DNA of 26,500 nt from a virus. Positions within the stretch are counted from its first letter, which is position 1. Every line of letters starts with the position of its first letter. Both the position numbers and the translations under genes were made by a program. Below the pieces are notes generated by a model. It did no database searches. It was not told where the DNA came from and saw only the letters and a program-made list of their open reading frames with translations. The DNA lies in IMG/VR virus record IMGVR_UViG_3300034375_011142, positions 1 to 26,500 of that record. One strand, 5' to 3'. Positions 2,903 through 26,166 of the stretch are shown here, in pieces.

Positions 2903-5900
2903 ATGCCTGGTAAGCTACCTGGGGGAAAATTAAGAATATCTAGAGTTGTTCCCCCTCTTTCTACAGTTGCGGATCCTACGGACACTGAAGTTAAATACTT
3001 TGGTCTTATAAGAGACGACGCTCTTAGTGATCTTGAGTCTAGCACGGAAGCGTTGCAAGAAGTGCTAAAGGACATTCAGTCTGTCTCTGAAAGAGAGACG
3101 GAAGGGGTATTTAACTTAAAAGACGTTTCGATTCTAGACGGCATTGAGGTTTTTGGAGTCGCAAAAGAAGACCTTTCTCCGCTTCAAGGTGCTGCCTTAA
3201 CAGACGGTGCTGGTGAAGCTATTGTAAATCCTCGCCAAAGACTACAAGATAGAATTACTCATTTTGAATCTTTTGCGGGGCGAGGTACTCCGTTCTTCGG
3301 ATCTGGGCCTATAAAATATATGTATTACGCCGATCCTATCGGTACAGACCTTCCAGGGATTGTTTCTGTTGCTGCTAATGGAACTGTAACAGGTAACAGT
3401 ACTAACTTTAATGGATCTACGGGTGCAAATGATCCATTTACTCCCCATGTTTTAACAAATGGCGACTATGTAGATGCATATAATTCAAACAACGAAAGGG
3501 TCGGAAGATATATAGTTAGCGGAAATCCATCTAGCAAGACGGCAATGACCGTTACAAATGCTGACACAGGCGCTATTACCGCTGTGTCTAACGTGTCATT
3601 AAAAGTAATATATTCTCACACTAGCCCACCTCCATTTTTTACAGAGCCAATAACCTCTACAGCATTTAACGCCCCAGATCATATTCCCAATATCTCACAA
3701 CTCGAATATACTCATAGAATAGGTAGTAGCTCTACAGGAAGCTTTGTGCCTACAAAGTACAAAGAAGATTGGTGGGAAGGAGATTATGAAAGAGATTTCA
3801 AAAACCCTATTAGTAACCCCTATCAAGCATCTGGAGAAAATGCAGATAACGATCCAACTTTTAACATCATTAAAGACGGAAATAAAAACTATGGGCTATT
3901 ACTCAATGACTTTCCTATTGATAAAAATCTAGGAATAAGATACGACTTTTATTTAAAAAAAGATTTTGTCGGAGAGTATTTTAAGTGGGCTGTACAAAAG
4001 TACGGAGAGGTTAAGATCGATGTTTACAAGCAAACAGGAATTGCTTCTAACGGCAATCCTCAAGGGTCTTGGATAACTGTTTTAGATACAACTGATGAGA
4101 GCACTTATCACGTATTTATTGACAAAGAAGAAAGTACACAAAACTTTGCAGAATTTAGAGAAGTGTATATGAACGGCGGCTCTAATTTTGAAGCATTAGC
4201 CACTACTTCTGAAGCAGCATTTTTAGATACAAGAGATACTTATACAGACTTAGAAGATACCGAGATCTCTAATTTTGACAACGAGTTTATTCCTGTTATT
4301 ATTAGATACTGGTACGGACAAAATACTTTTAACAAAAATATAACAACTATTCCTGAGCAATCAAGATTAACACCTGGTGGAACAACTCCTTCTGTTAACT
4401 TTGATCTTAGAGAGTTTAATCTTTCTGAAGTTAACCTAGGTGGAACTATAAGCACATTAACAACTGCAGGAGTAGTTACAGGAGTTGGAACTGCATTTAC
4501 TACAGACCTTGCAGTTGGAAGCAGAATAACTATAAATAGCAAGTCTTATAAAGTAGTTTCTATAGACAGTGACGTAAGCTTAATTATAAGAAATCCTGCA
4601 GAAGATAATTTCACAGGGCAGAGCTATATAGCTTCAACTGACAGAACCCATAAGCAAGCATGGAATAATTACTATACCCACGTTAAGGGTACTTTTGCAG
4701 GTGGTGTAGTAACATTAGATAATAATTATACAGGAGCAGGAACACAAAATAGTTTAGCCAATATGAATCGTAGATTTGATATTGTTGCATATACTATCGC
4801 AGGAAATGCTCCCACAGGCTTAAGTAATACAAAAAATATTTTAAACTATAAATCTGAATCTCAAACCAAATATGACTTCGGTCCTTCTAAGAGTAATTTT
4901 TACGAGGGAATAAGAGTAGATGGCGGAAGTGGCGACTGGACTGATCTTACTTTTACAGTATCTGGTATTTCTATAGCAGAAAATGCTATAGTTCACATGA
5001 TGATTCAAAATAATCCTCTCAAAACTGAACCTCCAAGAATAGTACCTGCCAGTAACTCTAATTTTACAGACGTTGATGAAATTGATAATGGTAGCGGCCG
5101 GGCTCTTTGGGTTGAATTTGTTTATTATCCCGATGAAAAAGGTACATACGAAGACGCAGGCGATCTCTTATCTAATGGAGCAGGGTATTCAGAAATAGAT
5201 CCAGAAAAGCAAGCTCTAGAAGAAAGAAGCGTTTATTTTGGGTATAAGTACGGCGTGCTCCCTGAAACAAATCAATATACCTCTGCAAGGTACGATGGAT
5301 TTTTAAGAAACACAATTACAAATGCTGTTACGAACAGAGACTATGATTATAACCATCCCAAACTTCTTGCAATAGGAAGGCAGAAAAAAGACACGGCCAT
5401 TAAGCCTTTGCAAACAGGAGAAATAAGACCTGATGGCGCTAACTACACTTTCTTCATGTATGAGGCTGACGCATTCAATAACGGAGGTAGGGTTCAAATT
5501 CTTGCCGGGCCTGTTAATAGCTTAGCCGCAATATTTGCTCCAATAGCAGCTGGAGTAGACGCATCTTCAAGTCCTGGTAAAATACTTCATAGCACAGACA
5601 ACGTTAATACTTTTTCAAATACAAATAAGCAAAACATAACAGCAGCTGCTTCTGTTGTTACTCAAGGTAGTGGGTCTAATAATTACGGCATCTATCAAGA
5701 GGAATTTTTAGGAGGCCCGATTCTAGTTGCAAGAGGAAGCGGTACAGCAGGAGACTACAGCGCCGTTTGGTCTATTTCAAACATGGGAGACCCAGAAGGC
5801 AGAAACACTATCAACAAGACCTTATTCCTTGCTTATGTTTCTCAGGGGGCTGGGATCAACGCCTATTTTCGCGAGTTAATTAACGCGGAAAGACCTAGCG

Positions 5901-7093
5901 TCAAAGCCTCTTCTATCACATTAATAGGAGGAGGTCCGACACCGTCAATCCAAAATGCTGGTTTATTTGCCGCGGACTCTTCTAACTCATCTAGAACAAA
6001 TCAAAACGCCGTTCCTTATATAAGCTCTAGGGTTGCCCTATACGCCTCAACGGATTCTGCTTATGCTACTGTCTTAGCAGAATATGACGTTACATCCTAT
6101 ACTGCTAGTTCTACTACAGTAGCTTTAAATAGAATAACAGGAACAGACCAGCCCGCCGGAACTTATAGAGCAATAGTTTATTACAACTACTTAAAACTAC
6201 CACAAGCTCTTCATACTTTAGATTGGACTGACGAAAACGGAATAGACAAAACAACTACCTCTATACAAGACTCCCCGACGTATAGCGGAACTAGCAACAA
6301 CATGATTATTAACGGAGTGTATAGCACTTCGGCAACCTACTCTAGAGTTGATAACGGATCAACTTTGTCGTTTGGCGACGCACTGCTAATCGAGCCAGGA
6401 AGCAACACTAGCTCTGCTATAAGTCCTTTTAGCTCACAAACAGAACTTCCCTTCCCGCCTTCTGCAGCAGTAACACCCTTCGGGTTTGATAAGTCTTCTA
6501 ATGATATAAACAACCCAGGATTGGGAGGTATTTGCTATCCTCCTATTGATGCTCCAGCAGATCCTGCACTTTCAACTCTTGCTATTGAAGATGCTGATCT
6601 ATATGGCCGATCTGGCGGAACATTAAGAAAAGACGAGGGACATTATGATACTTACTTTGGAGGTAAAAATTTAACTAATATTGGCTTGGCGTCTATAACA
6701 GTGACAAGAGGGTTTGTGTTTGATTTCCCTACAGACAGCTATAACGATATCATCACAACGCCTTCCTCTGCACAATTACCTATATTTTCTTCCAACTCCT
6801 ACACTCATAAATTAAGAGTAGAACTTACTCCGTACATTGGAGAGCCTAGTACTACTTTTGCTAACGCTACAGGGTTGTTTTTAAGATCAGAACTTTATAA
6901 TAATCCTACGGGTGCAAGTCCACTGACTTCTTCTGACCAAAACCCCCATATTTACAACGACGTAACTACGTACTACTCAACTCAAGAGGCTGTAAAAGAA
7001 GCAGTGTACTTATTTACTAAGTCTTCCTCTATCAATCCTACATCAGAAACTGACGTTAGCCTAATATCAACAAGTTCTATAAACTTTGTTTAA
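2903..7093 (+). CDS. Very large virion structural protein, fibre or baseplate type
   Basis: This 1396-residue protein has no catalytic motif that I recognise. After a Pro-rich N-terminus there is a short helical stretch (about 38-68, LESSTEALQEVLKDIQ). FESFAGRGTPFFGSGPIKYMYY follows at 121-142, which reads like the N-terminal attachment part of marine myovirus structural proteins. Two small beta modules of the type VTGxxTxF...L..GD/S.I...V follow, at about 152-236 and 515-570. The second (GVGTAFTTDLAVGSRITI) is a typical phage structural micro-domain. The rest is Asn/Ser/Thr/Tyr-rich beta sequence with few cysteines, as in fibres. The ATG at 2903 follows TACT, with no Shine-Dalgarno sequence. 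The gene runs head-on into the minus-strand block and its TAA shares bases with the opposing stop codon. The structural role is inferred from length, composition and neighbours. Confidence 0.85.
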   Translation: MPGKLPGGKLRISRVVPPLSTVADPTDTEVKYFGLIRDDALSDLESSTEALQEVLKDIQSVSERETEGVFNLKDVSILDGIEVFGVAKEDLSPLQGAALTDGAGEAIVNPRQRLQDRITHFESFAGRGTPFFGSGPIKYMYYADPIGTDLPGIVSVAANGTVTGNSTNFNGSTGANDPFTPHVLTNGDYVDAYNSNNERVGRYIVSGNPSSKTAMTVTNADTGAITAVSNVSLKVIYSHTSPPPFFTEPITSTAFNAPDHIPNISQLEYTHRIGSSSTGSFVPTKYKEDWWEGDYERDFKNPISNPYQASGENADNDPTFNIIKDGNKNYGLLLNDFPIDKNLGIRYDFYLKKDFVGEYFKWAVQKYGEVKIDVYKQTGIASNGNPQGSWITVLDTTDESTYHVFIDKEESTQNFAEFREVYMNGGSNFEALATTSEAAFLDTRDTYTDLEDTEISNFDNEFIPVIIRYWYGQNTFNKNITTIPEQSRLTPGGTTPSVNFDLREFNLSEVNLGGTISTLTTAGVVTGVGTAFTTDLAVGSRITINSKSYKVVSIDSDVSLIIRNPAEDNFTGQSYIASTDRTHKQAWNNYYTHVKGTFAGGVVTLDNNYTGAGTQNSLANMNRRFDIVAYTIAGNAPTGLSNTKNILNYKSESQTKYDFGPSKSNFYEGIRVDGGSGDWTDLTFTVSGISIAENAIVHMMIQNNPLKTEPPRIVPASNSNFTDVDEIDNGSGRALWVEFVYYPDEKGTYEDAGDLLSNGAGYSEIDPEKQALEERSVYFGYKYGVLPETNQYTSARYDGFLRNTITNAVTNRDYDYNHPKLLAIGRQKKDTAIKPLQTGEIRPDGANYTFFMYEADAFNNGGRVQILAGPVNSLAAIFAPIAAGVDASSSPGKILHSTDNVNTFSNTNKQNITAAASVVTQGSGSNNYGIYQEEFLGGPILVARGSGTAGDYSAVWSISNMGDPEGRNTINKTLFLAYVSQGAGINAYFRELINAERPSVKASSITLIGGGPTPSIQNAGLFAADSSNSSRTNQNAVPYISSRVALYASTDSAYATVLAEYDVTSYTASSTTVALNRITGTDQPAGTYRAIVYYNYLKLPQALHTLDWTDENGIDKTTTSIQDSPTYSGTSNNMIINGVYSTSATYSRVDNGSTLSFGDALLIEPGSNTSSAISPFSSQTELPFPPSAAVTPFGFDKSSNDINNPGLGGICYPPIDAPADPALSTLAIEDADLYGRSGGTLRKDEGHYDTYFGGKNLTNIGLASITVTRGFVFDFPTDSYNDIITTPSSAQLPIFSSNSYTHKLRVELTPYIGEPSTTFANATGLFLRSELYNNPTGASPLTSSDQNPHIYNDVTTYYSTQEAVKEAVYLFTKSSSINPTSETDVSLISTSSINFV

Positions 7094-9042
7094 GGTAGAT
7101 ATCTAAATAGAGGTACTAAGTAAGTATTAACGTTCCCGCTACCATTTTGAGCGGGGAGAGCTACTGTTGATACTGATGGGGCATTTTCTTTATGGAAATA
7201 AAACGCTCCGTCCGCGCCTAGATAATGTGATTCGCTATTGGCTGTTCCTAAGCTAACTGGTTGAATGCGTTGTCCCAAGGTCGCAACTTCTGTGTTAAAC
7301 GCGTAGGCTGTGTTTGAACTATCAGTATCCTGAGCAGAAACAGCGTACGTACTGCCAAGGTCTGGATTTGTAATATTGCCGGCATTATTAAGAGTAAGGA
7401 AAGGTTTGTCTTTTGTAGAAAACGCTCTTTTATACTCAGTACCCACCTTAATAAATATTCCAGGAGCTCTGTACTTAACGTTATTATGGAGTATTTCAAA
7501 TCTTCTCCCCCCTTCAAATGCAGTTTTTAATTTTGCTCCTGTTATCCAGGCATTATTAGGATTTAGTATGTAGTCTTGGTCTCTAAGTACGAGCCTCTGT
7601 CTAAATCTTGCGCTAACTCCTACAAACCTATTAAACTCAAATCCTAGATTGTTTCTGCTGTCTGTTTCGGTAAGAGGTAGCCTTGTATTTTGAATAGATA
7701 GCTCAGCGTCACTTGTAAGTCGGGCAGCAAGTTCTTGTAGTCCATTTATCTCTCCGACAATTCGACCTCCTAACTGATATCTGTTTACATATTGTTCCAA
7801 CGCTACAGCAGAACCAGAAAATCTTAAGTTAAATATATTTCTAACATCTACTCCATCAAATCTTGCAATTCTAATTTGCCTATCTTCTACGCCCTCATTA
7901 AACTGCGTTTCATCTTTTTCTTTATCTAAAAATATGTATTTTGATTCTAAAGAGTCATATAAATAAAACCCATCAGGGCCGCCTTTTACAACATCATATA
8001 GATAATTTACAACAAAAATACTTGGTTTGTTTCCAGAATATAGATAATCTTCTTGTTTCTCTAAATATAAAGCACCGTTACCTGATGTGTTAGAGACAAC
8101 GCCTTCTTTTACTAATAGTCGTTCTCCTAGAATATACCCTGTTCCTCTAGAAGTAAATGTAATAGAGGCAATCTTAAACCTTCTTGTATAGAATCCTGTA
8201 TAGTACGATAGTTCTTCGGGTGCGTTGGTGGGGGGTAGTAGTAGTGTTCCAGACTGGTTCTCGCTGCTTTGCTGAGGAGTTACAAGCGTATATTCTTTAA
8301 CTACATTATTAGCAAAAGTAACTTTTACAAGTACATTAGTACTTAACGGGCTACTACCAGAATCCGCTGTATAGTTCCAAGTACCATTTGCATTCATCTG
8401 GAAGTCGTGGCCTGTTCCAAAAATGTTATTAGCAGGAGAACCAGCAGCATAGTCTGAGCCATTTAGTCTATAGGTAGTGACATTTGCTGTAGCGTAAATA
8501 GTTGGGTCTATTACAAATTCTACTGTTGCTAGGGCATTATTTGCTCCGCTTTTCTCCCCCTCTAAAACAACTCCTGAAACAGTTACATTAGAAATTAAAT
8601 TTTCAACTTCTCCTTGAGAGTTTGTTTGTCTAAAGAAAAATCCGTCTCCAGAGTTATTAATTTTAATTTGAGGTATAGATCCGTTCTCAGAGTATATGGG
8701 ACCATAAGCCTCGGCGTCACCCCCTACCCCCAGAGTATAAGTATCAAAAAATACTTTATTTCCAGTAGCAAAAGTGTAGTCTTTTGTAATAAATTTTGTT
8801 CTCTTTACTGCTTGATCTTGGTTATTAACTTTAGTTTTAAAAGTTTGAGAAGCAAGCGCTATAAGTTGAGCAGAAGGATTTGACTGAGACTCCGTACCGC
8901 TATTTACAAGAGAATTAATCTGAGAAGATAAAGAAAACAATTCTATATCATTTTCAATTCCCGGCGCATCTAATTTTTGAAGGGCCTCTTTAAGGTTAAT
9001 GTCTCTTTCAGAAAGATTTAATTTTTTACTTAATCCTGCCAT
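7090..9042 (-). CDS. Large virion structural protein
   Basis: This 650-residue protein belongs to no family that I can name. The N-terminal 50 residues are predicted helical and Leu-rich (LNLSERDINLKEALQKL), and may dock to a partner. After that the sequence is beta-rich. A GYI motif in a TSRGTGYILGERLLV segment near 297-310 resembles the G-x-G-Y pattern of the protein at 30-761. ALEQYVNRYQLGGRIVGEINGLQELAARL near 410-440 is a likely helical linker. The C-terminal 60 residues are Ser/Ala/Asn-rich. It is the last gene of the minus-strand structural block. The start at 9042 is well supported by AGGAGA 8 nt upstream and a TATAAATA late-promoter match just before that, within the short gap after the LRR gene. 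A tail or fibre component is likely, but the exact role is unknown. Confidence 0.85.
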   Translation of the reverse strand: MAGLSKKLNLSERDINLKEALQKLDAPGIENDIELFSLSSQINSLVNSGTESQSNPSAQLIALASQTFKTKVNNQDQAVKRTKFITKDYTFATGNKVFFDTYTLGVGGDAEAYGPIYSENGSIPQIKINNSGDGFFFRQTNSQGEVENLISNVTVSGVVLEGEKSGANNALATVEFVIDPTIYATANVTTYRLNGSDYAAGSPANNIFGTGHDFQMNANGTWNYTADSGSSPLSTNVLVKVTFANNVVKEYTLVTPQQSSENQSGTLLLPPTNAPEELSYYTGFYTRRFKIASITFTSRGTGYILGERLLVKEGVVSNTSGNGALYLEKQEDYLYSGNKPSIFVVNYLYDVVKGGPDGFYLYDSLESKYIFLDKEKDETQFNEGVEDRQIRIARFDGVDVRNIFNLRFSGSAVALEQYVNRYQLGGRIVGEINGLQELAARLTSDAELSIQNTRLPLTETDSRNNLGFEFNRFVGVSARFRQRLVLRDQDYILNPNNAWITGAKLKTAFEGGRRFEILHNNVKYRAPGIFIKVGTEYKRAFSTKDKPFLTLNNAGNITNPDLGSTYAVSAQDTDSSNTAYAFNTEVATLGQRIQPVSLGTANSESHYLGADGAFYFHKENAPSVSTVALPAQNGSGNVNTYLVPLFRYLP

Positions 9043-9065: not shown

Positions 9066-12000
9066 TTAAACGACGGGAACATCAAACAAGTCTATGGTTA
9101 TCCTACTCGAGTTTAATTCTCTTAATTTTGTTTTTAATGGGTCCTCTGCTCCACCGGAAAGAGTATCAAAGATATCGTTTAACTGCCAATTACTATAAGT
9201 TCCTGCAGAGATATCTGGTTTTGTTGCTTTAAGTTTTATTCTGAGATCTCTTAGTCTATTATCACCCATAATTTCATATACATCATAAGCGTCTTGAATA
9301 ATTCTTCTGATAGACAATCTACTTAGCGGATTATTTTCTAAGTTAATGGTTACTATTTCTGCTCTACCTGTAAACCCAGCATTTGAAGCTCCTGTTATAT
9401 TTTGAAGGGTCCCCGTCCTATAACAAGTAAGCAAATTACTTTGTAAATCTAAAATTCTTAACCTTCCCTGCCCAGTGTTTTTAAAATTAGGAATAAAGCC
9501 GCCTAAAGAGCAATCCTTCATGTAAATATACTCTACATTAGGACATCCGTTAAAGAACCCATCGCATTCAATGGCCTTTCTTCTAAAAGTAACAGATGTG
9601 TCTGAACTATAATTTAATGTTATACCTTCTCCTGTAGAGTTTGCTCCTACTACTACAATATACTCGTAGCTAGGATCTTCATTAAATACGGATCCAACTC
9701 TGCCTTTTAGTTGCCCACCAATATACACTTCATCACCGACTCGAACATATTTTTGCAAGTTAGTAACGCCTGCAGTTTTAAGAAGTATATTTCCAGCAGA
9801 TTGCGGGGCTCCTTTATAAGCCCTAGATTTAAATGTAGTAGAGCCTGAAACCCACTGTTCTTGTGAAATATTCCCGTACTCAGAGGTAGTACTCTTGTCA
9901 TCCCAGTTTAATGGCGCAAGAGCACTAAACACTGGCTTATTTTGCTTAGACGTATCTTGTGCCCAGCTTGATGGATACTTCGAAAGTAGAGAATCTGTTG
10001 TATAGAATCTTTTTAATATAGTGCTTCCGCTATTAATATTTAATGGGGCCATGTCTGGAACAATTGCTCCACCAACGTTTGTTCCAGAATACCTGATATA
10101 GATTTCCTGTACTCTTTTTGTTGATTTCACAGATAAAGCGCTTAGATCAAAGAATCTATTATTTTCAGCGCGCATTCTAAGCGCTAACGACTCACTTGCG
10201 CCCTGGGCTACTCCTGGAATTCTGGGGAAACGTCCTGACCAGCGCCCTGAGCTAATCGAAAGAAAAGCCATTTTAGTAAGCTTATCAAAGTCGTTATACC
10301 TAAACTTCATTTCATAATTTCTATTATTATTGATTTCTAAGGCCCTAATTACGGTCTCTGTAGTAGGGTGGAAGAAATTGAGCGGAAATATATATTTACC
10401 GGGTTCATTGGCTCCTGTGCCTCCCTGCGAGATTGAAAGACTACCTTCTGCGTAGCCCTCCCAATCAATTGCGCCAATATTTATATAATCTAATTTTGGG
10501 CAATCTTTAACGCTAAATAGTCTGCCGGTCCATCCACTGTTATAAGAAGCAATCGTTCTTAATTCCGACGCTTTTACAAAATCGTTCGAGTCGGTTGTGG
10601 TGGTAGTCGTACCAGGATTATATCTAATTTTTCTTTCTGGTCCATGAGCCCTAGTGTAAGTAAGATTCAATGATTCTAGTTTTTGCCAAATAAGAGAAGA
10701 TCCTGTTGCTAAGTTAAAAGCTATGTCGGTTTGGACGAAATCAATAACTTTAGCGTTAGTCAACCAGCCGGACCATGCCGTTGCCGCGCTAGTAGCTGCG
10801 TGACTGTATCTATTAAGAGCCGTTCCTCCGATAGTATCTGTGACGTTCATAACGCGTGCGGTGGTATTGGCCGGGTCGTTAATATTTCCAACCATTGTAT
10901 CATCTGTGCAAATGCCTCCAGCAAAGTTATTACTGTTGTAACCTAGATGGTCGACATTCCATGTAATTACTTTAAATTGTCCTATGAATTGTTGTTGTTG
11001 ATCGGCTGTATCTCCAGATGCCCATTGAATATTATCGCCGACATCCCGCATACTCCCACCAACTTGTGTCTGCCAAGAATAGTTTATCGAAAACTCCTGG
11101 TTGTTATTATTTAATTTAGGAATATTTCCGTATAGGTTTTTAACCCCGTTTTGAGATGTTGATATATCTATCTCTCCAAGATTGGGGAAAATAACAGAAA
11201 AATCTGGATTTGCAACTTTAAACCTTGAGCCTAATCTCAATATCCTTAGAGCAGTGAATCTTCTGATACCATTTGCAAGACCTGCTGCTCCGGTAAATGA
11301 GCCGTTATTGCCAGGGTTTAATCTTGTTTGATGGAGGAGGTGGCTTCCGGCCGTTGCAGTTGATAAAGTTCCGTCATACGAAGCTTTCTTTACTCCGCCA
11401 CCGCCTGCTTCAAATCCGCTATATGCTAGTATCTGTACCCCGGTCTGAACGGGAATGTTGGTGCTATTGTAGCTATTATATAGGTTTGGGTTAGTTTGCC
11501 AGTCGAACCATTCAATAATACCTTGGTCCCAAAATCTATTACCACGCAAATCTAGTTCTTCTAAAGTAAAGTGGTTTACCTTTAGCCACGTAGGAATGGT
11601 GGAAAGTCTATTATTCCGACAAGAAAATACTTTTAAGTTGTCGAACCCAAGTAAGCCTAGATCAGGAGTATTATCGTCCTCTTCTATTCCTAGTCCTTCC
11701 AACCTTAATTCCTCTACAATAGAAGGAGCACAATAGATATATAAATAAGCATCCTGGTTATTTCCAGTCTTTCCGGTGGTATTTATACTTCTAGTCATTG
11801 TGTTTCTAGAAGCTTCTAGAGAATTATTAAAAGTTTCTCCTGTAATTTTATAATTATCGCTTTTTCTTCTAAGCTCGTATCCAAAATAATATGGAGAAGG
11901 AGCGTTCCGAGTAAAGATTGTAAAGCTTGCAGAGTTGTTAATCTTAACTGGGACTCTTAGCGGAGAGTTTTTAGAGGCAAGAGCGTCTACAACCTGCAAC

Positions 12001-12653
12001 GAAGGACTAGACGTGTTAGGCGTTTGCATATAAACGGGAACCTTCACAATATTTGTAGGGCTTTCCGTAATACCGCCTTTAGGAACAAATAAATTTTTTG
12101 CTAATTTGAGACTAGAGTAGTGGCCTCTTCTTCTTACTCTTAGGGTTCCTCCATAGGAAGCATTAGTATATCTTCCATTTGTGTCTCTTTCTGCATTAAA
12201 TAAACTTTCTCTAGAGGTAGATACTGTTGCTGTCGAAAGGTTTCCTTTTTTGTCTTTAAATTTATATTCTATTGCGTTAGCGGCTATTCCGCCATGAAGC
12301 ATTATAATGTTATCAGAGTACTCGGAAGTAAGAAGGCTGCTTTTATCATTTTCTCCTATGTCTTTATTACTTCTAATCTGATTTTGAACGTCAATAGTTA
12401 CTGCCTCGTCTGTTTGTTCAAATAACGCAAGGCTATCGATCACTCTTTGATCAAGCCCAGCAATAAGTCTAATGTCTTCTTTACCCAGTCCTTCTGCAGC
12501 TAATCCTCTAATCTCATCTAAAGACTCTGGTGGCAAGAGCAAATTTCTTAAAGCTCTGTCCTGGTCTTCGGGATAAATTTCCGATAAGTTTAAACGATCA
12601 ACAAAACCGATTTTTGGCCTTGTTGCTTGCAAGAAACTAAAATATTCTGACAT
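9066..12653 (-). CDS. Giant leucine-rich-repeat virion protein
   Basis: This 1195-residue protein is probably a tail-fibre or adhesin-type structural protein built on irregular leucine-rich repeats. LRR-like units include LKVFSCRNNRLSTIPTWL (about 346), LEELDLRGNRF (about 366), LRILRLGS (about 470), LESLNLTYT (about 657), LDYINIGAI (about 719), VEYIYMKDCSLGGFIPNF (about 1041), LRILDLQSNLL (about 1066) and INLENNPLSRLSI (about 1100). They carry the LxxLxLxxN spacing in degenerate form, separated by Asn/Ser-rich loops. The N-terminal 90 residues are non-repetitive and partly helical (LNLSEIYPEDQDRALRNLL), likely a particle-docking region. The ATG at 12653 lies 6 nt after the stop of the upstream gene with no good Shine-Dalgarno sequence, so it is probably co-transcribed and coupled. 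LRR domains bind proteins or glycans, so a role in host contact is my inference. An LRR-containing baseplate protein is the alternative. Confidence 0.85.
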   Translation of the reverse strand: MSEYFSFLQATRPKIGFVDRLNLSEIYPEDQDRALRNLLLPPESLDEIRGLAAEGLGKEDIRLIAGLDQRVIDSLALFEQTDEAVTIDVQNQIRSNKDIGENDKSSLLTSEYSDNIIMLHGGIAANAIEYKFKDKKGNLSTATVSTSRESLFNAERDTNGRYTNASYGGTLRVRRRGHYSSLKLAKNLFVPKGGITESPTNIVKVPVYMQTPNTSSPSLQVVDALASKNSPLRVPVKINNSASFTIFTRNAPSPYYFGYELRRKSDNYKITGETFNNSLEASRNTMTRSINTTGKTGNNQDAYLYIYCAPSIVEELRLEGLGIEEDDNTPDLGLLGFDNLKVFSCRNNRLSTIPTWLKVNHFTLEELDLRGNRFWDQGIIEWFDWQTNPNLYNSYNSTNIPVQTGVQILAYSGFEAGGGGVKKASYDGTLSTATAGSHLLHQTRLNPGNNGSFTGAAGLANGIRRFTALRILRLGSRFKVANPDFSVIFPNLGEIDISTSQNGVKNLYGNIPKLNNNNQEFSINYSWQTQVGGSMRDVGDNIQWASGDTADQQQQFIGQFKVITWNVDHLGYNSNNFAGGICTDDTMVGNINDPANTTARVMNVTDTIGGTALNRYSHAATSAATAWSGWLTNAKVIDFVQTDIAFNLATGSSLIWQKLESLNLTYTRAHGPERKIRYNPGTTTTTTDSNDFVKASELRTIASYNSGWTGRLFSVKDCPKLDYINIGAIDWEGYAEGSLSISQGGTGANEPGKYIFPLNFFHPTTETVIRALEINNNRNYEMKFRYNDFDKLTKMAFLSISSGRWSGRFPRIPGVAQGASESLALRMRAENNRFFDLSALSVKSTKRVQEIYIRYSGTNVGGAIVPDMAPLNINSGSTILKRFYTTDSLLSKYPSSWAQDTSKQNKPVFSALAPLNWDDKSTTSEYGNISQEQWVSGSTTFKSRAYKGAPQSAGNILLKTAGVTNLQKYVRVGDEVYIGGQLKGRVGSVFNEDPSYEYIVVVGANSTGEGITLNYSSDTSVTFRRKAIECDGFFNGCPNVEYIYMKDCSLGGFIPNFKNTGQGRLRILDLQSNLLTCYRTGTLQNITGASNAGFTGRAEIVTINLENNPLSRLSIRRIIQDAYDVYEIMGDNRLRDLRIKLKATKPDISAGTYSNWQLNDIFDTLSGGAEDPLKTKLRELNSSRITIDLFDVPVV

Positions 12654-20309: not shown

Positions 20310-22679
20310 TCAATCAGATACGTAGACATTTCCGTCAGCAATGAAGTAATTATCTCTTACAATTTTAATTGAGGCTCCTCTGGTAATTAATGTTTCGTTT
20401 CCGTTAGGGAACGCGCTACTTACATCGGAAGGAATAGCCAAGGTAAGACTAGAATCAGCAGCAGTAGTTCCTAATATGGAATATTCGACGTTTTGATCGT
20501 TCCAGTTCTCAAGGTCGTTATTGCTATTTGCTACTCCAAAGGTAACAATCTTATCATTAGATCCTCCAGCTCCTCCTACAAAGAATAAGAATTTAAGGAA
20601 ATCAGAGGTAGTTTCAAAGAAAAGCTTGATTTGAGTAGAGGAGATTGCTTTAATTTGCTTGAGAGGGAAATCTCCTAATCTTACTTTACCAGTAATTCTA
20701 TACGAATAACCATAATGAGGATTAGAGCCATCAACGTCAATTAATTTATAGTTGCTGGTGCCTAAAATTGCGTTGCCGGCATTTGCATCTCCGTTGATAG
20801 TGTTTTCTCCTGCTGCAATATTAGCTATAGGTGCAGTTACACCAAAAATACCGGCTCTTAGCTGATCGACACTTTCAATAACTTTGAGATACGTTGTTGG
20901 AGAGTTTACATTAGGTATTGCATAATTTGCGTTTAATGCGTATACTTTTGCTTCCAAAGTTCCAACGGCAATGTCGACAGGAAGCTGGCCTTCTGTTACT
21001 GTAAAGTAGTAAGGGGCCATAGGAGTGCCTCTCTTAATTGCAATAGAAGCTCTGCTATAGTCATTTTGATATAGGTCAACAGACTGAATAACACTTCCAG
21101 AAGAGTTAAAGGTCAAGTTACCAGTAGCATTCCAGTTATCAGAGGCTCTTAGTAGTAATCCGGTATCGCCACAATTGTTAATGATATTATTGTTGATTAC
21201 CGAGACATCAATACCTGTAAAGTCTGCAACCCCCGTGCAATTCTCAAATAAGTTACCTTGCGCAATGACCTTGTCAGTCTCTCTAATCTTAACAGGAGGC
21301 ACATTGGGCTCGTAAGGCTTAGACATCTGGAAGATCTTAGAGTTCGTAAGATTTAGTTTTTCAGAGTCTATAGAATAAATTGCAGTTCCAGCGCCATTAT
21401 AGAATGAACAGTTATCTATAGTTAGTAGATCTACATGTTCTAAAGCAAGCATGTCTTGGTATTTGCTAGAGATTCCATAAATGTCATTTGCAGGACTCTT
21501 TGTAGCAAATGTTTCTGTTTTGTTGCCATCAAATGCAAGATTGCTAAAGCTAATACCAGTAACTCTGTCGCTAGGATTACCCATAATACCTACCGAGCCG
21601 TACTTATCTTGAGTGTTAATAAACAAAGGGCCTCTCTTAATAATCGAAGATGTACCAACTCCTCTTAAAGAAATGCCATTATATGCGTCGTTTGTTCCGT
21701 TTTCGTTGTATAGTTTAACGTGGCCGACATTATAAGTTCCAGATGGGAAGAAAATATCTTTGATGATAAAGTCTTTTCCATAGTCAATTGCGTCTTGGAT
21801 GGCCTTTGTATCGTCAAACTTAAATTTGACTGTAGTGTTTCCTCCGAATAACGGAGAAAGGTCTGCCTGGTTATTAAATGCGTCAACAAGCTCAAGAGCA
21901 CCTGTAATCTCGTTTTTATATCTAATTTCTAAAGTTCTTTTTCCTGTTACTACTTTAATAGTAGGTCCAGCGTCGTTAGCAGCATAAGAAATTTGGTCGC
22001 TTAAAGAATCTGGAATAAAGAATCTAGAGTTACCTGCAACATAGTCTTCGTCCCAAGAAGCAATTTGAACAGCACCTCTATCTTGGAAGGTAATTGTAGA
22101 CCCTGTTCCTACAGCATTATTTCCTGGTATACCGAGAAACTTAAGTACGCCATTATATCTTCTAAAAATTAAAGGTAGGTATTGGTTGCTAGATCTTTGA
22201 AGAGTAAACTGAATATAATTTTGCTCGTCAAAAGTAGTGTCTGGATTTGATAAAATATTATTCTGAGTAATTTCCGATCCGTAGGGAGATAGGACTCCTG
22301 TTTGTGGATTGAAAGGATATACAAAGTATTTAACTTCTGAGCCTGCTGCTCCTGTGCTGTCGTATATTGCGCCTACTGGAGTTGCATTAGGGCTTGTAAA
22401 AATAAAATTGTACAACGCCGAAGATGGCGTAGAAGTATTTTCGTAGAAAAATGCAGTAATCCTTCTACCGATTATAAAGTAGTCTTTTTCATACTCGTAA
22501 AAATCAGAAATTCCATTAAAGTAAATAGAGGTTCCTGCAGAATTAACACCGGAGACCGAACCGGTAAAATAACGATCGAGTCCTGTTGCTCCAAAAGATT
22601 TTACGTTAATGTACTGACTTTTGTTCCCATCAATTTGGACTACTGTATTTCTATAAGGGTCTAGACCAATATACCTCAT
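20310..22679 (-). CDS. Pectate-lyase-superfamily beta-helix tail fibre or tailspike
   Basis: This 789-residue protein carries a right-handed parallel beta-helix, a common fold of phage tailspikes that bind or cut surface polysaccharides. INVKSFGATG (24-33) is the opening half of the Pectate_lyase_3 signature, and DDTKAIQDAIDYGKD (289-303) followed by IFFPSGTYNVGHVKL (309-323) is the second half. Normally these are adjacent, but here about 255 residues of other beta-rich sequence separate them. Beta-helix rungs follow from 335 to about 540 (ISLRGVGTSSIIKRG, ISFSNLAFDGN, LTIDNCSFYNGAGTAIY, KVIAQGNLFENCTGV, VSVINNNIINNCGDTGLLLRASDN). The C-terminal 240 residues are a separate beta region. I see no secure catalytic acid set, so it may bind without cleaving. 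It heads the minus-strand block, with the ATG at 22679 and GTTTAAAG 33 nt upstream. Confidence 0.88.
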   Translation of the reverse strand: MRYIGLDPYRNTVVQIDGNKSQYINVKSFGATGLDRYFTGSVSGVNSAGTSIYFNGISDFYEYEKDYFIIGRRITAFFYENTSTPSSALYNFIFTSPNATPVGAIYDSTGAAGSEVKYFVYPFNPQTGVLSPYGSEITQNNILSNPDTTFDEQNYIQFTLQRSSNQYLPLIFRRYNGVLKFLGIPGNNAVGTGSTITFQDRGAVQIASWDEDYVAGNSRFFIPDSLSDQISYAANDAGPTIKVVTGKRTLEIRYKNEITGALELVDAFNNQADLSPLFGGNTTVKFKFDDTKAIQDAIDYGKDFIIKDIFFPSGTYNVGHVKLYNENGTNDAYNGISLRGVGTSSIIKRGPLFINTQDKYGSVGIMGNPSDRVTGISFSNLAFDGNKTETFATKSPANDIYGISSKYQDMLALEHVDLLTIDNCSFYNGAGTAIYSIDSEKLNLTNSKIFQMSKPYEPNVPPVKIRETDKVIAQGNLFENCTGVADFTGIDVSVINNNIINNCGDTGLLLRASDNWNATGNLTFNSSGSVIQSVDLYQNDYSRASIAIKRGTPMAPYYFTVTEGQLPVDIAVGTLEAKVYALNANYAIPNVNSPTTYLKVIESVDQLRAGIFGVTAPIANIAAGENTINGDANAGNAILGTSNYKLIDVDGSNPHYGYSYRITGKVRLGDFPLKQIKAISSTQIKLFFETTSDFLKFLFFVGGAGGSNDKIVTFGVANSNNDLENWNDQNVEYSILGTTAADSSLTLAIPSDVSSAFPNGNETLITRGASIKIVRDNYFIADGNVYVSD

Positions 22680-23613: not shown

Positions 23614-23853
23614 TCAGGCTGCAGGGACTTCATCTACGACTTCGGTAGGAGTAGCAACGGCCTCTTCGACTGCTTCGCCCTCGCCGCCTTGACCGGGCTC
23701 TTCGCCTAGCTGGAGCTGCATTGCCTCAACAGCTCCTTGGAGCTTGAGGGCGAGTTCTTGGCGTTGGGCCAAGGCGGCGCGGAGCTGGGAGATCTCCTTT
23801 TCGAGCTTTTCAAGCTGGGCGGTAAAGTTTTGCTTCAGATCTTGTGGTTCCAT
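23614..23853 (-). CDS. Small coiled-coil protein with acidic tail
   Basis: This 79-residue protein has residues 5-50 in a regular heptad pattern (LKQNFTAQLEKLEKEISQLRAALAQRQELALKLQGAVEAMQLQL), so a coiled coil is confident. Residues 51-79 are Gly/Glu/Val/Ala-rich, acidic and probably disordered. Small coiled-coil proteins of this build recur in T4-like cyanophages without a known function. The ATG at 23853 lies 25 nt after the TAA of the methyltransferase gene, and that stop codon sits in GTCTAAGG, a variant of the recurrent upstream element. The Shine-Dalgarno sequence is weak (GAG). Base composition is visibly richer in G+C than in the fibre genes. It may act as an oligomerisation or assembly adaptor, which is my inference. 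Confidence 0.8.
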   Translation of the reverse strand: MEPQDLKQNFTAQLEKLEKEISQLRAALAQRQELALKLQGAVEAMQLQLGEEPGQGGEGEAVEEAVATPTEVVDEVPAA

Positions 23854-23875
23854 AAATAGTTCTCAGTACGCTATA

Positions 23876-23883
23876 TCCTTAGA
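23876..23883 (-). promoter_or_regulatory. GTCTAAGG element overlapping the methyltransferase stop codon
   Basis: On the minus strand GTCTAAGG followed by ATATAG lies 22-23 nt before the ATG at 23853, and the TAA inside it is the stop codon of the preceding gene. The same overlap of a stop codon with this element occurs at the kinase gene (790-797). Confidence 0.3.
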
Positions 23884-25159
23884 CTAAAAAATAATCTTTG
23901 ATGTAATTCGCCCCTGTTTCTGGAGTTGAGTCGATGATCATTCCCAGCTCTCTAAGCCGATCCATATCCACCAATTCAGGCTTCACCCACCAGTCCTCAA
24001 ATGGGTACCAGTCGGTAGGACCGACGTCAGGGACAATAATCTCATAGCCAAGGGACCTTAGGTATCTGCGAGATTTTTCTCTGTATGTTTTTGAGATATC
24101 TACAGCGTGATCGTGTTCAAAAGTAATCACCCTAAACTTATACTCCTCAAATGGAATAGAGATAAGCACTTCAAAAGACGTAGAGGAGGGCTCAGTATCA
24201 ATCTGTAAGTAATCAACTACGTTATCAAACTCTCCTTCTTTGAGTACTTTTTTATAATTGAGCTTAGTTGCATCGGCGCAAATCACAGGGTTGGAGCGCT
24301 CGGCCCTAAATTTTTGTACCTCGGGCATATCGATTTCAATGCTGGTGCCCTTCCACCCAAACTCTCTTTCGAGGATGCATGTATTGCTAAAATAAACCGG
24401 GTCTTCTGATCCGATTTCTAGGTACGTTCCGTTTTTCTTTCCATTGAGAACAGAAAGGATGAACATATCTTGGTAACATTGAGAATGGTTTCTTTTGAGC
24501 TTTTCTACTCCGTCAAACTTTACTCGGAGAGGCGAAAGATCTGTTTCAGCAATGTAAGGCACCCCGGCTACAGATGCCGGACCTACTCCCCAACGTTTAA
24601 TATAATGGTCAAGAGCCTCTACGTCTTTGTAGTTGAGACAATCTTGGTGGTTATTTGCGAGATCTTGGAGAATCTTTCTAGATTCCACTGTTCGGCCCCA
24701 TTCATAGGCTGAAATTGCCATGAGGAGGAGAAAGTTGCCAGGTGCCTTGTATCCAAGGCCCCCGCAGACATTCTCTGGAGTTGGGAGCGCATAGCCTATT
24801 TTGCTAAGCATGTACACCTCTGGCCAGGATTGTTTCTTTGCGTATATCTTAGAGAGGAGGAAATATGCTTCGGGACGTGTAGGGTCGATAGAGACTGCAT
24901 ATTTTAATATGGACTCGCAAGTGATGTCTCTACTTGGGTACTTGCTCATGCAAACAAATGCTCGGCATAGCGAGTTGTAAGCGATATTAAGCACGTGGGG
25001 ATTATCTAATCCTTCTTCTTCGGAAAATTCTGACGCCCTGAGATAGAATGAAAACGCCGCGGAAAACTGATGTTGTTTTTCATACCACCAGGCTAACTCA
25101 AAATTTGCGTCAGGAAGCCTAGTAAATTTAATGTATTTTTGTAGCGGGGTTAGTTGCAT
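23879..25159 (-). CDS. TPR-like domain fused to an FkbM-type SAM methyltransferase
   Basis: This 426-residue two-part protein has TPR-like helical repeats in residues 15-170 (FELAWWYEKQHQFSAAFSFYLRAS at 20-43, PEAYFLLSKIYAKKQSWPEVYMLSK at 96-120, GNFLLLMAISAYEWGRTVESRKIL at 141-164), of the kind often joined to glycosyltransferases. Residues 225-375 form an FkbM-type methyltransferase: SQCYQDMFILSVL (226-238), SAM-binding YLEIGSEDPVYFSNT (246-260), LEREFGWKGTSIEID (263-277), YLQIDTEPSSTSFEVL (317-332) and FEHD (347-350). FkbM enzymes O-methylate sugars or other small molecules. The C-terminal 50 residues are extra. The start at 25159 overlaps the end of the propeller gene by 10 bp, so the two are coupled. 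Methylation of a glycan handled by that partner is my inference. The SAM fold is clear, the substrate unknown. Confidence 0.88.
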   Translation of the reverse strand: MQLTPLQKYIKFTRLPDANFELAWWYEKQHQFSAAFSFYLRASEFSEEEGLDNPHVLNIAYNSLCRAFVCMSKYPSRDITCESILKYAVSIDPTRPEAYFLLSKIYAKKQSWPEVYMLSKIGYALPTPENVCGGLGYKAPGNFLLLMAISAYEWGRTVESRKILQDLANNHQDCLNYKDVEALDHYIKRWGVGPASVAGVPYIAETDLSPLRVKFDGVEKLKRNHSQCYQDMFILSVLNGKKNGTYLEIGSEDPVYFSNTCILEREFGWKGTSIEIDMPEVQKFRAERSNPVICADATKLNYKKVLKEGEFDNVVDYLQIDTEPSSTSFEVLISIPFEEYKFRVITFEHDHAVDISKTYREKSRRYLRSLGYEIIVPDVGPTDWYPFEDWWVKPELVDMDRLRELGMIIDSTPETGANYIKDYFLV

Positions 25160-26166
25160 AGCGATAGGACCTCGGAGAGCGCAATTTTAAGCATAAATGC
25201 GGTATTGTCTTGGAAGCCAAAAGTTATGAGAACTTTGGAAGGATCGGTGGGGTCGGTGGCCATTCCACAGCAAAATTCTACCCGTGCATCGGCAAAATTA
25301 AACGGATCGGATTTTGCCAGGAGGTCTAGGGAATTTGGATCGAGGAGGAGAACTCTGTGCGTATATACGGCGTTTTTACGGTTCTTCTCTGTGAAGAATA
25401 GATCGGTTTCGTGGACGATGTACATATACACCTCGCCCCATTGCTCGGTGGAAACACGGATTACTTGGGATCCGCCACGCAGATCATGGTGGGAAATACC
25501 AGGCATGAATCTACCGCTGTGGATTGTTCGAGTGGGTAGGCCGGAGGGGTTTACTTTTACTACTTCGAGAGGGTTTGACCACTTGATGAATTCGTATTGG
25601 CGGTCAAGAATTGGTACCCAGTTTTTCTCGCAGTAGGAGGCATTGGGGTCGGGGCCGGGGATGGGAATGCGATAGCGGGATACCTCGGAAACTTTATGGG
25701 AGTGAGTGTCGATGACTAACTCACTAAGCTCCATACGTCCTACTCCATTAGGAGTAGTGTCACGCCGGACTCCACAGAGATACATCTTATTACCCCATGC
25801 CACCAATCTCCCGTCTTCTAGGCCATGGAATTCCCACATCGGATCTGCATCGAGAGCAGATGTGTCCACAACGCTGTGCCATTCAACCCCAGACAAGTCT
25901 CTTTTCATTTTGCACAGGATGTTTGTGGTTTTGAGCTTTATGTCGTTTTCGGGATGGACGTATACAATTGGTCCCCAAGGATGCTCGAAATTGTTGTGCT
26001 CTGAGTGGTAGAGGATGTAGTTTATGTTACGTAGATTGACCCATACAGAGTTGGTGTTTGGGTCGGTGAGGACGGACGGGTTGGTGAGAGATGGGCCAAG
26101 GCTAGGGCCGATCGGCACGAGGAGGGGGATTAGGTCGCCCTTTGCTGAGAGGGGGGATATGGCCAT
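25150..26166 (-). CDS. Five-bladed beta-propeller, GH130-like glycoside phosphorylase or hydrolase
   Basis: This 338-residue protein resembles the GH130/GH43-type propeller in its order of motifs. WEFHGLEDGRLV (111-122) matches the ExDxR-containing blade of GH130 mannoside phosphorylases. YCEKNWVPI (178-186) falls where a K-N-W/F-x-P/L blade motif is expected. SHHDLRGGSQVI (225-236) resembles the Arg-Gly-Gly phosphate or substrate loop, and VEFCCGMATDP...LITFGFQDN (296-321) matches the closing xGxxxx...YG/FGxxD signature. There is no signal peptide. Related proteins in phages and bacteria are often annotated only as glycosidase-like. The ATG at 26166 follows a GTCTAAAG element without a Shine-Dalgarno sequence. 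The methyltransferase gene overlaps the 3' end by 10 bp. G+C is high compared with the fibre genes (37 of 60 bases at 25621-25680). Fold is likely, activity unproven. Confidence 0.75.
   Translation of the reverse strand: MAISPLSAKGDLIPLLVPIGPSLGPSLTNPSVLTDPNTNSVWVNLRNINYILYHSEHNNFEHPWGPIVYVHPENDIKLKTTNILCKMKRDLSGVEWHSVVDTSALDADPMWEFHGLEDGRLVAWGNKMYLCGVRRDTTPNGVGRMELSELVIDTHSHKVSEVSRYRIPIPGPDPNASYCEKNWVPILDRQYEFIKWSNPLEVVKVNPSGLPTRTIHSGRFMPGISHHDLRGGSQVIRVSTEQWGEVYMYIVHETDLFFTEKNRKNAVYTHRVLLLDPNSLDLLAKSDPFNFADARVEFCCGMATDPTDPSKVLITFGFQDNTAFMLKIALSEVLSLCN

Follow-up and report, generated by a model that had tools for sequence, protein, structure and literature searches.

The window analysed here spans an entire IMG/VR virus record (26,500 bases), in which two overlapping minus-strand genes form a putative sugar-modifying cassette. 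The upstream gene (25150..26166, minus strand) encodes a GH130-fold propeller of 338 amino acids, assigned from its open reading frame, a predicted model, fold matches and invariant residues. The downstream gene (23879..25159, minus strand) encodes a protein of 426 amino acids which combines a TPR domain with an FkbM-like methyltransferase part, as indicated by its open reading frame, Pfam, a predicted model and relatives. As the initial annotation of this DNA had stated, the two open reading frames overlap by 10 bp (25150..25159, minus strand), and overlaps of similar size, most commonly 11 bp, are found in relatives. Upstream of the propeller gene and separated from it by 71 bases lies a LamG-domain (ConA-like lectin) gene truncated by the contig end (26238..26498, minus strand; Pfam Laminin_G_3, E 3.2e-11), whose product is a possible fibre or acceptor. 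A 79-residue gene of unassigned function (23614..23853, minus strand; phrog_580) directly follows the cassette, and further left the window carries a beta-helix protein identified by Pfam search (20310-22679), two proteins that match virion-structural PHROGs, and PhoH. The LamG-domain and beta-helix genes bear out the fibre-gene and virion setting proposed initially. Three open reading frames in the structural region (2903-7093, 7090-9042 and 9066-12653; 1396, 650 and 1195 amino acids) had no PHROG match at E <= 0.001. Rfam and tandem-repeat searches of the window gave no match, nor did defence-system models run against four proteins.

The window propeller had no match at E <= 1 in Pfam, PHROGs or NCBIfam. 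A model built from an alignment of 43 viral sequences is a five-bladed beta-propeller (pLDDT 88.8, pTM 0.90) for which GH130 enzymes top both the Foldseek and the VIA lists (Z 21-24). The best GH130 match had a Foldseek E of 2.0e-9 and a Z of 24.1 (3.4 A, 282 residues aligned), followed by Leishmania mannosyltransferases (Z 18.5) and GH43 (Z 18.3). At the sequence level, PF04041 was matched by 14 of 39 propeller relatives at E <= 1 (best 1.3e-4), the window protein itself giving no hits, and the NCBIfam beta-1,2-mannobiose phosphorylase model was matched by 2 of the 43 sequences (best E 0.0014). Aligning the propeller family with cellular GH130 by hhalign gave a probability of 5% and an E of 0.0075, pairing the motifs of N29, R46, E117-D118, H252, Y268 and D320. 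An hmmsearch of solved structures with the 39 relatives found no GH130, single-protein searches of solved structures returned nothing at E below 0.5, and among 116 ORFs from cellular loci, several of them on the other strand but all read in six frames, the phage-family HMM gave no hit. The only profile matches, to Photorhabdus lectins (best E 0.0021), were taken as chance repeat similarity. Since the profile misses solved GH130 enzymes, we refer to the propeller as a GH130-fold relative and not as a GH130 member; the earlier description as GH130-like is right at the level of the fold, though the window protein has no family match.

Nine residues (N29, R46, E117, D118, K181, R230, H252, Y268 and D320) do not vary among 9 divergent propellers, which include two paralogues 24-25% identical. 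Going by motif and spacing, N29, R46, E117, D118 and D320 would correspond to Asn74, Arg89, Glu141, Asp142 and Asp363 of BT3780, in which the mutants E141Q, D142N and D363A are reported to have no activity (PMC4599007). Invariance and motif suggest that D118 is the catalytic-type Asp. By eye, K181 may be the counterpart of Lys199, the beta-1,2 determinant of BT3780, although hhalign places K181 elsewhere. In the GH130 phosphate pocket, H252 fits the His according to hhalign, while by eye and without superposition R230 or D228 could stand for the Lys and K195 or W196 for the third residue, an Arg that is not clearly kept; for this comparison we used what we take to be the phosphate-binding residues of UhgbMP. 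The catalytic-residue check against GH130 suggested at the outset thus turned out mixed, with an invariant D118 and phosphate-binding residues that are at best partly kept. Overall, the propeller resembles the GH130 beta-mannoside phosphorylases Teth514_1788, UhgbMP and BF0772 in its five blades, its Asn, Arg, Glu-Asp, Tyr and C-terminal Asp motifs and its conserved His, but differs from them in its low identity (ca. 12-18% in structural alignments), the missing profile match, the third phosphate residue, its viral origin and its coupling to a TPR domain. The ratio dN/dS was 0.036-0.077 in 7 of 8 propeller pairs (one was saturated, and dS exceeded 1 in several) and 0.059-0.142 in five pairs of the TPR gene, the remaining pairs being saturated or lacking a TPR model. 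These ratios show purifying selection.

The predicted model of the 426-residue protein (pLDDT 86.3, pTM 0.67) shows helices across residues 5-190, followed at about 240-393 by a Rossmann-like part. From the modelled helices and fold matches we place the TPR superhelix at residues ~5-191 (24588..25147, minus strand), and from the strand and helix pattern together with a sub-threshold Methyltransf_21 match at residues 287-373 we place the FkbM-like Rossmann part at residues ~222-405 (23945..24496, minus strand). The best Pfam TPR hit of the window protein (E 8.8e-4) is below the Pfam cut-off; the fold is supported by the antiparallel helix pairs of the model and by the fold search, and Pfam TPR models score above cut-off in the relatives at L075 and L001. 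SPINDLY and O-GlcNAc transferase occupy the first Foldseek rows. In the fold search ranked by Z, which the TPR part dominated, several TPR proteins unrelated to one another share the top, so the TPR fold matches are generic. The FkbM part (PF05050) reaches 13.4 bits in the window against a cut-off of 22.7 bits, which is exceeded by a relative (L265, 23.4 bits), by L002 and by a stand-alone protein (L010). Invariant residues of this part in 15 sequences include G240, G244, E248, G250, D321, E348 and H349, while an hhalign comparison with stand-alone FkbM was weak (probability 9%). Regarding the TPR-FkbM methyltransferase named in the initial annotation, the TPR domain is therefore real and the FkbM assignment falls below the Pfam cut-off in the window, with L265 passing it.

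Propeller and TPR domain are found together across phages. IMG/VR scans met 141 relatives with the propeller and 529 with the TPR, 80 being kept from each; the two sets share contigs. The TPR directly follows the propeller in 75 of the 80 kept viral relatives, lies less than 1.5 kb away in 4 and is cut off by the contig end in 1, and after dereplication at 85% the corresponding figures were 35, 2 and 1 of 38. In the reverse direction, the propeller is directly upstream in 65 of 66 TPR loci with 1 kb of upstream sequence and further off in the last one; where there was less room, it was visible in 13 of 14. FkbM is located downstream of the TPR in 71 of 74 loci with room (TPR-side scan). A separate FkbM gene is present in 62/80 propeller loci; the window has its FkbM-like domain fused instead. 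The TPR protein exceeds 230 residues in 15/80 propeller loci, four of which also have a separate FkbM, and 7/80 have neither, three of them cut short. Scanning with the fused TPR-FkbM protein yielded 13 loci, with the propeller upstream in 12 and a contig end in the other. The suggestion that the propeller and a sugar-type methyltransferase belong together thus held up, the pairing being strongly conserved in phages and near-universal in both directions and the putative catalytic Asp being kept. The initial annotation overlooked that the constant partner of the propeller, as read from gene neighbourhoods, is the TPR domain, while most relatives have the methyltransferase as a separate gene or have something else in its place.

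Among the relatives, two are annotated: Synechococcus phage S-SCSM2R, which has both genes and the collagen-like pattern, and DSL-LC02. The TPR-methyltransferase of S-SCSM2R (L001, 12932-14797) carries the annotation 'cytochrome c-type biogenesis protein CcmH/NrfG', a label that probably stems from its TPR repeats only. Two more propeller paralogues of 24-25% identity, without recognised Pfam domains, are encoded on the contig of L063 (L436, 4946-6022 and 10754-11683) near genes that by eye resemble thymidylate synthase and ribonucleotide reductase. At L010 (9446-12067) and its relatives, the cassette directly adjoins portal and MuF-type head genes, in either relative orientation.

The domains fused to or neighbouring the cassette comprise FkbM, GT17, GT25, Methyltransf_24, radical SAM with SPASM, NAD epimerase and DUF6445, the nature of the latter being presumed here; a GT2 match in L057 is sub-threshold (21.8 vs 23.3 bits). 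L012 joins the propeller to FkbM, and L092 joins it to a GT25-like part, again sub-threshold (17.4 vs 24 bits). On the TPR side, GT25, TPR and an FkbM-like methyltransferase form one protein in L086, TPR-GT17 fusions occur in L068 and L014, and L002 is a TPR-FkbM-radical SAM fusion. An epimerase gene lies beside the cassette in L076, and the metagenome-assembled genome DSL-LC02 is reported to also encode a GDP-mannose 4,6-dehydratase (PMC10611076). In L068 (2142-7313), the five genes after the propeller are Methyltransf_24, a TPR-GT17 and, by eye, three more GT17-like genes; L069 repeats this gene order.

Because these partner domains are exchangeable and biosynthetic, we consider the setting of the cassette to be biosynthetic and set aside the trimming of glycans that had been part of the original proposal. 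A propeller borne on the particle and cleaving host glycans at entry would fit its position next to fibre and LamG genes, hydrolases do exist among GH130 enzymes according to PMC4599007, and D228, which is invariant within the main propeller family, is readable at the position of the hydrolase Glu. However, the paralogues keep R230 and have lost D228, the partners are methyl- and glycosyltransferases, and the Glu pair typical of GH130 hydrolases was not seen in the propeller, weak as the residue mapping is, so that we regard trimming as unlikely. The unit might also glycosylate or methylate phage DNA or serve host metabolism by acting on small molecules, in keeping with the frequent assignment of phage glycosyltransferases to DNA protection in the sources consulted (PMC12619734, PMC10611076). 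With the cassette often embedded in fibre and head modules and with FkbM and GH130 being sugar-acting families, such a role appears very improbable.

The cassette occupies an exchangeable slot. Alignment of the window with the syntenic record G107 stops at position 23854 despite 5.3 kb of further sequence in G107; the alignment with G111 stops at the same position, but G111 ends 652 bases later. The edge of the homologous block common to all three is marked by the 79-residue gene. Beyond it, the window has the cassette and next to that a LamG-domain gene, whereas in G107 a 78-residue gene is succeeded by two small genes, with a LamG-domain gene after them; the two LamG genes were compared by position and domain. 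Of 23 PhoH-lineage records, many of them fragmentary, 22 lack the cassette. The separate acquisition suggested initially is supported in the form of exchange at this place. The higher G+C advanced as a hint of it is real (0.436 and 0.501 for the cassette genes, GC3 0.445 and 0.56, compared with a GC3 of 0.28-0.34 in the six further genes for which it was measured, all on the left of the window), but the pair is not alone in this, since the flanking LamG and 79-residue genes are G+C-rich as well (GC3 0.46 and 0.56).

In a cellular collection of 84,980 species, we found 6 loci (L098-L103), all with a TPR partner. They are on short contigs in bins assigned to Chitinophagaceae, a cyanobacterium, Verrucomicrobia, Rhodobacteraceae, Pirellulales and Woesearchaeota. 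Five (L098-L101 and L103) carry further genes resembling neighbours at viral loci and L102 has the cassette genes alone; a PF04041 search of three of these six genomes gave no match. The loci are probably phage contigs in genome bins. An origin as a host gene set was rejected because there are just these six cellular loci, all with the TPR and five with virus-like neighbours. The propeller-TPR cassette is thus apparently virus-borne and widespread.

Co-occurrence with collagen-like genes provides a link to the virion. Gly-X-Y runs of at least 8 triplets are present in 60 of 95 cassette loci (one of the loci, L097, being a partial cassette), and at several loci they are in the gene adjoining the cassette. 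Among portal-related loci, some of which are contigs already in the propeller set, runs were found in 7/8 with the propeller vs 0/32 without it at lengths of at least 9 kb, and in 9/14 vs 0/66 at all lengths. At the record level, the collagen-like pattern was present in 25 of 30 cassette records, picked for length (22-244 kb), and in none of 15 shorter cassette-free portal relatives (22-43 kb), which also had no propeller; when restricted to records of at most 45 kb, the counts were 10/15 vs 0/15. Two of the 5 cassette records without the exact pattern (L056 and L057) show Gly-X-Y runs. Conversely, among at least 80 collagen-pattern loci picked irrespective of the cassette, the propeller was found in 2 and TPR plus FkbM in one more, so collagen-like fibres are common without a cassette nearby.

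The Gly-X-Y repeats of cassette phages are Thr-rich and nearly Pro-free. Among the matches listed, Thr at X amounted to 0.32 in 48 cassette loci vs 0.036 in 64 others (p 2.4e-12) and Pro to 0.01 vs 0.11, while Thr at Y did not differ (p 0.077). As the search pattern favours Gln at Y, we rely on the X and Pro figures, and the p-values come out too small because phages that are related do not count as independent samples. Not even 4 consecutive Gly-X-Y triplets occur in the window, and the pattern was found in 0/23 records of its PhoH lineage, though one of these (G123) has the cassette. Together with the 5/30 cassette records lacking the exact pattern, this led us to reject collagen-like fibres as the sole acceptor. 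The cassette co-occurs with collagen-like repeats in several, not all, lineages.

In many lineages the cassette is linked to virion genes, collagen-like ones among them, which favours the particle as target. This linkage also weighs against a transfer of methylated sugar onto host LPS or another surface glycan, which would block competing or sister phages. The Pfam description of GT25 as an LPS biosynthesis family points in that direction, FkbM and epimerase genes would equally suit surface polysaccharide synthesis, and the GDP-mannose genes of another cyanophage are assigned to cell-wall synthesis in PMC9602691. However, neither a flippase nor a membrane anchor was seen among the neighbours scanned, which are a part of all neighbours, and we consider modification of the host surface rather doubtful.

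The pairing, the fold and the context of the cassette are strongly supported; reaction direction, sugar, donor, acceptor, activity and benefit are what we infer. In our preferred reading, which we give a probability of about 0.5, the cassette is a phage glycan-building unit that places methyl-capped glycans on fibre or head-surface proteins of the phage itself. The propeller would work towards synthesis, either as a phosphorylase or as a transferase like GT108, and attach a sugar that is probably beta-mannosyl. Holding the protein acceptor or docking the enzymes would be the role of the TPR domain, like the TPRs of O-GlcNAc transferase, and the FkbM-like domain would O-methylate the added sugar and thereby cap it. 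The benefit may be fibre stability or masking from recognition. More tentatively, the GH130-fold/TPR unit could attach beta-mannosyl sugars, or ones like them, to Thr at X of the nearly Pro-free Gly-X-Y fibres for methylation by FkbM, so that the sugar replaces Pro as triple-helix stabiliser and leaves the fibre surface capped and inert. Where a lineage has no collagen-like repeats, as is the case for that of the window, other fibre proteins, e.g. the LamG neighbour, would serve as acceptors.

Several known systems share parts of this arrangement. The BclA collagen-like protein of the Bacillus exosporium has Thr-rich Gly-X-Y repeats bearing O-glycans with O-methylated sugars; the Thr-rich repeats are alike in cassette phages, whereas BclA is cellular and relies on other enzymes. 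Leishmania MPT enzymes (GT108; GDP-mannose transferase or mannose phosphorylase) share the fold (Z 18.5) and work in synthesis, but they score lower in Z than GH130, are eukaryotic and are compared here at the level of the fold. O-GlcNAc transferase and SPINDLY likewise join a TPR superhelix to sugar transfer; the cassette differs in its catalytic fold and in its TPR, which is short and in most relatives has a gene of its own. Phage enzymes are known to glycosylate virions (Freeman 2023, as cited in PMC12619734 and PMC10877033): in mycobacteriophages, they put glycans on capsid or tail proteins, as proposed here, but those enzymes are others and the modification is proven there.

In the open-licence literature searched, we found neither a description of the cassette nor a GH130-fold enzyme tied to virion glycosylation. 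The cassette is a recurrent phage enzyme unit, with the 141 propeller and 529 TPR relatives coming from overlapping scans. The analysis also names a testable acceptor, the collagen-like fibres of phages, whose stability is hard to explain almost without proline. If the proposed function is true, the cassette would bring a new enzyme fold to virion glycosylation and serve as a source of enzymes for sugar transfer.
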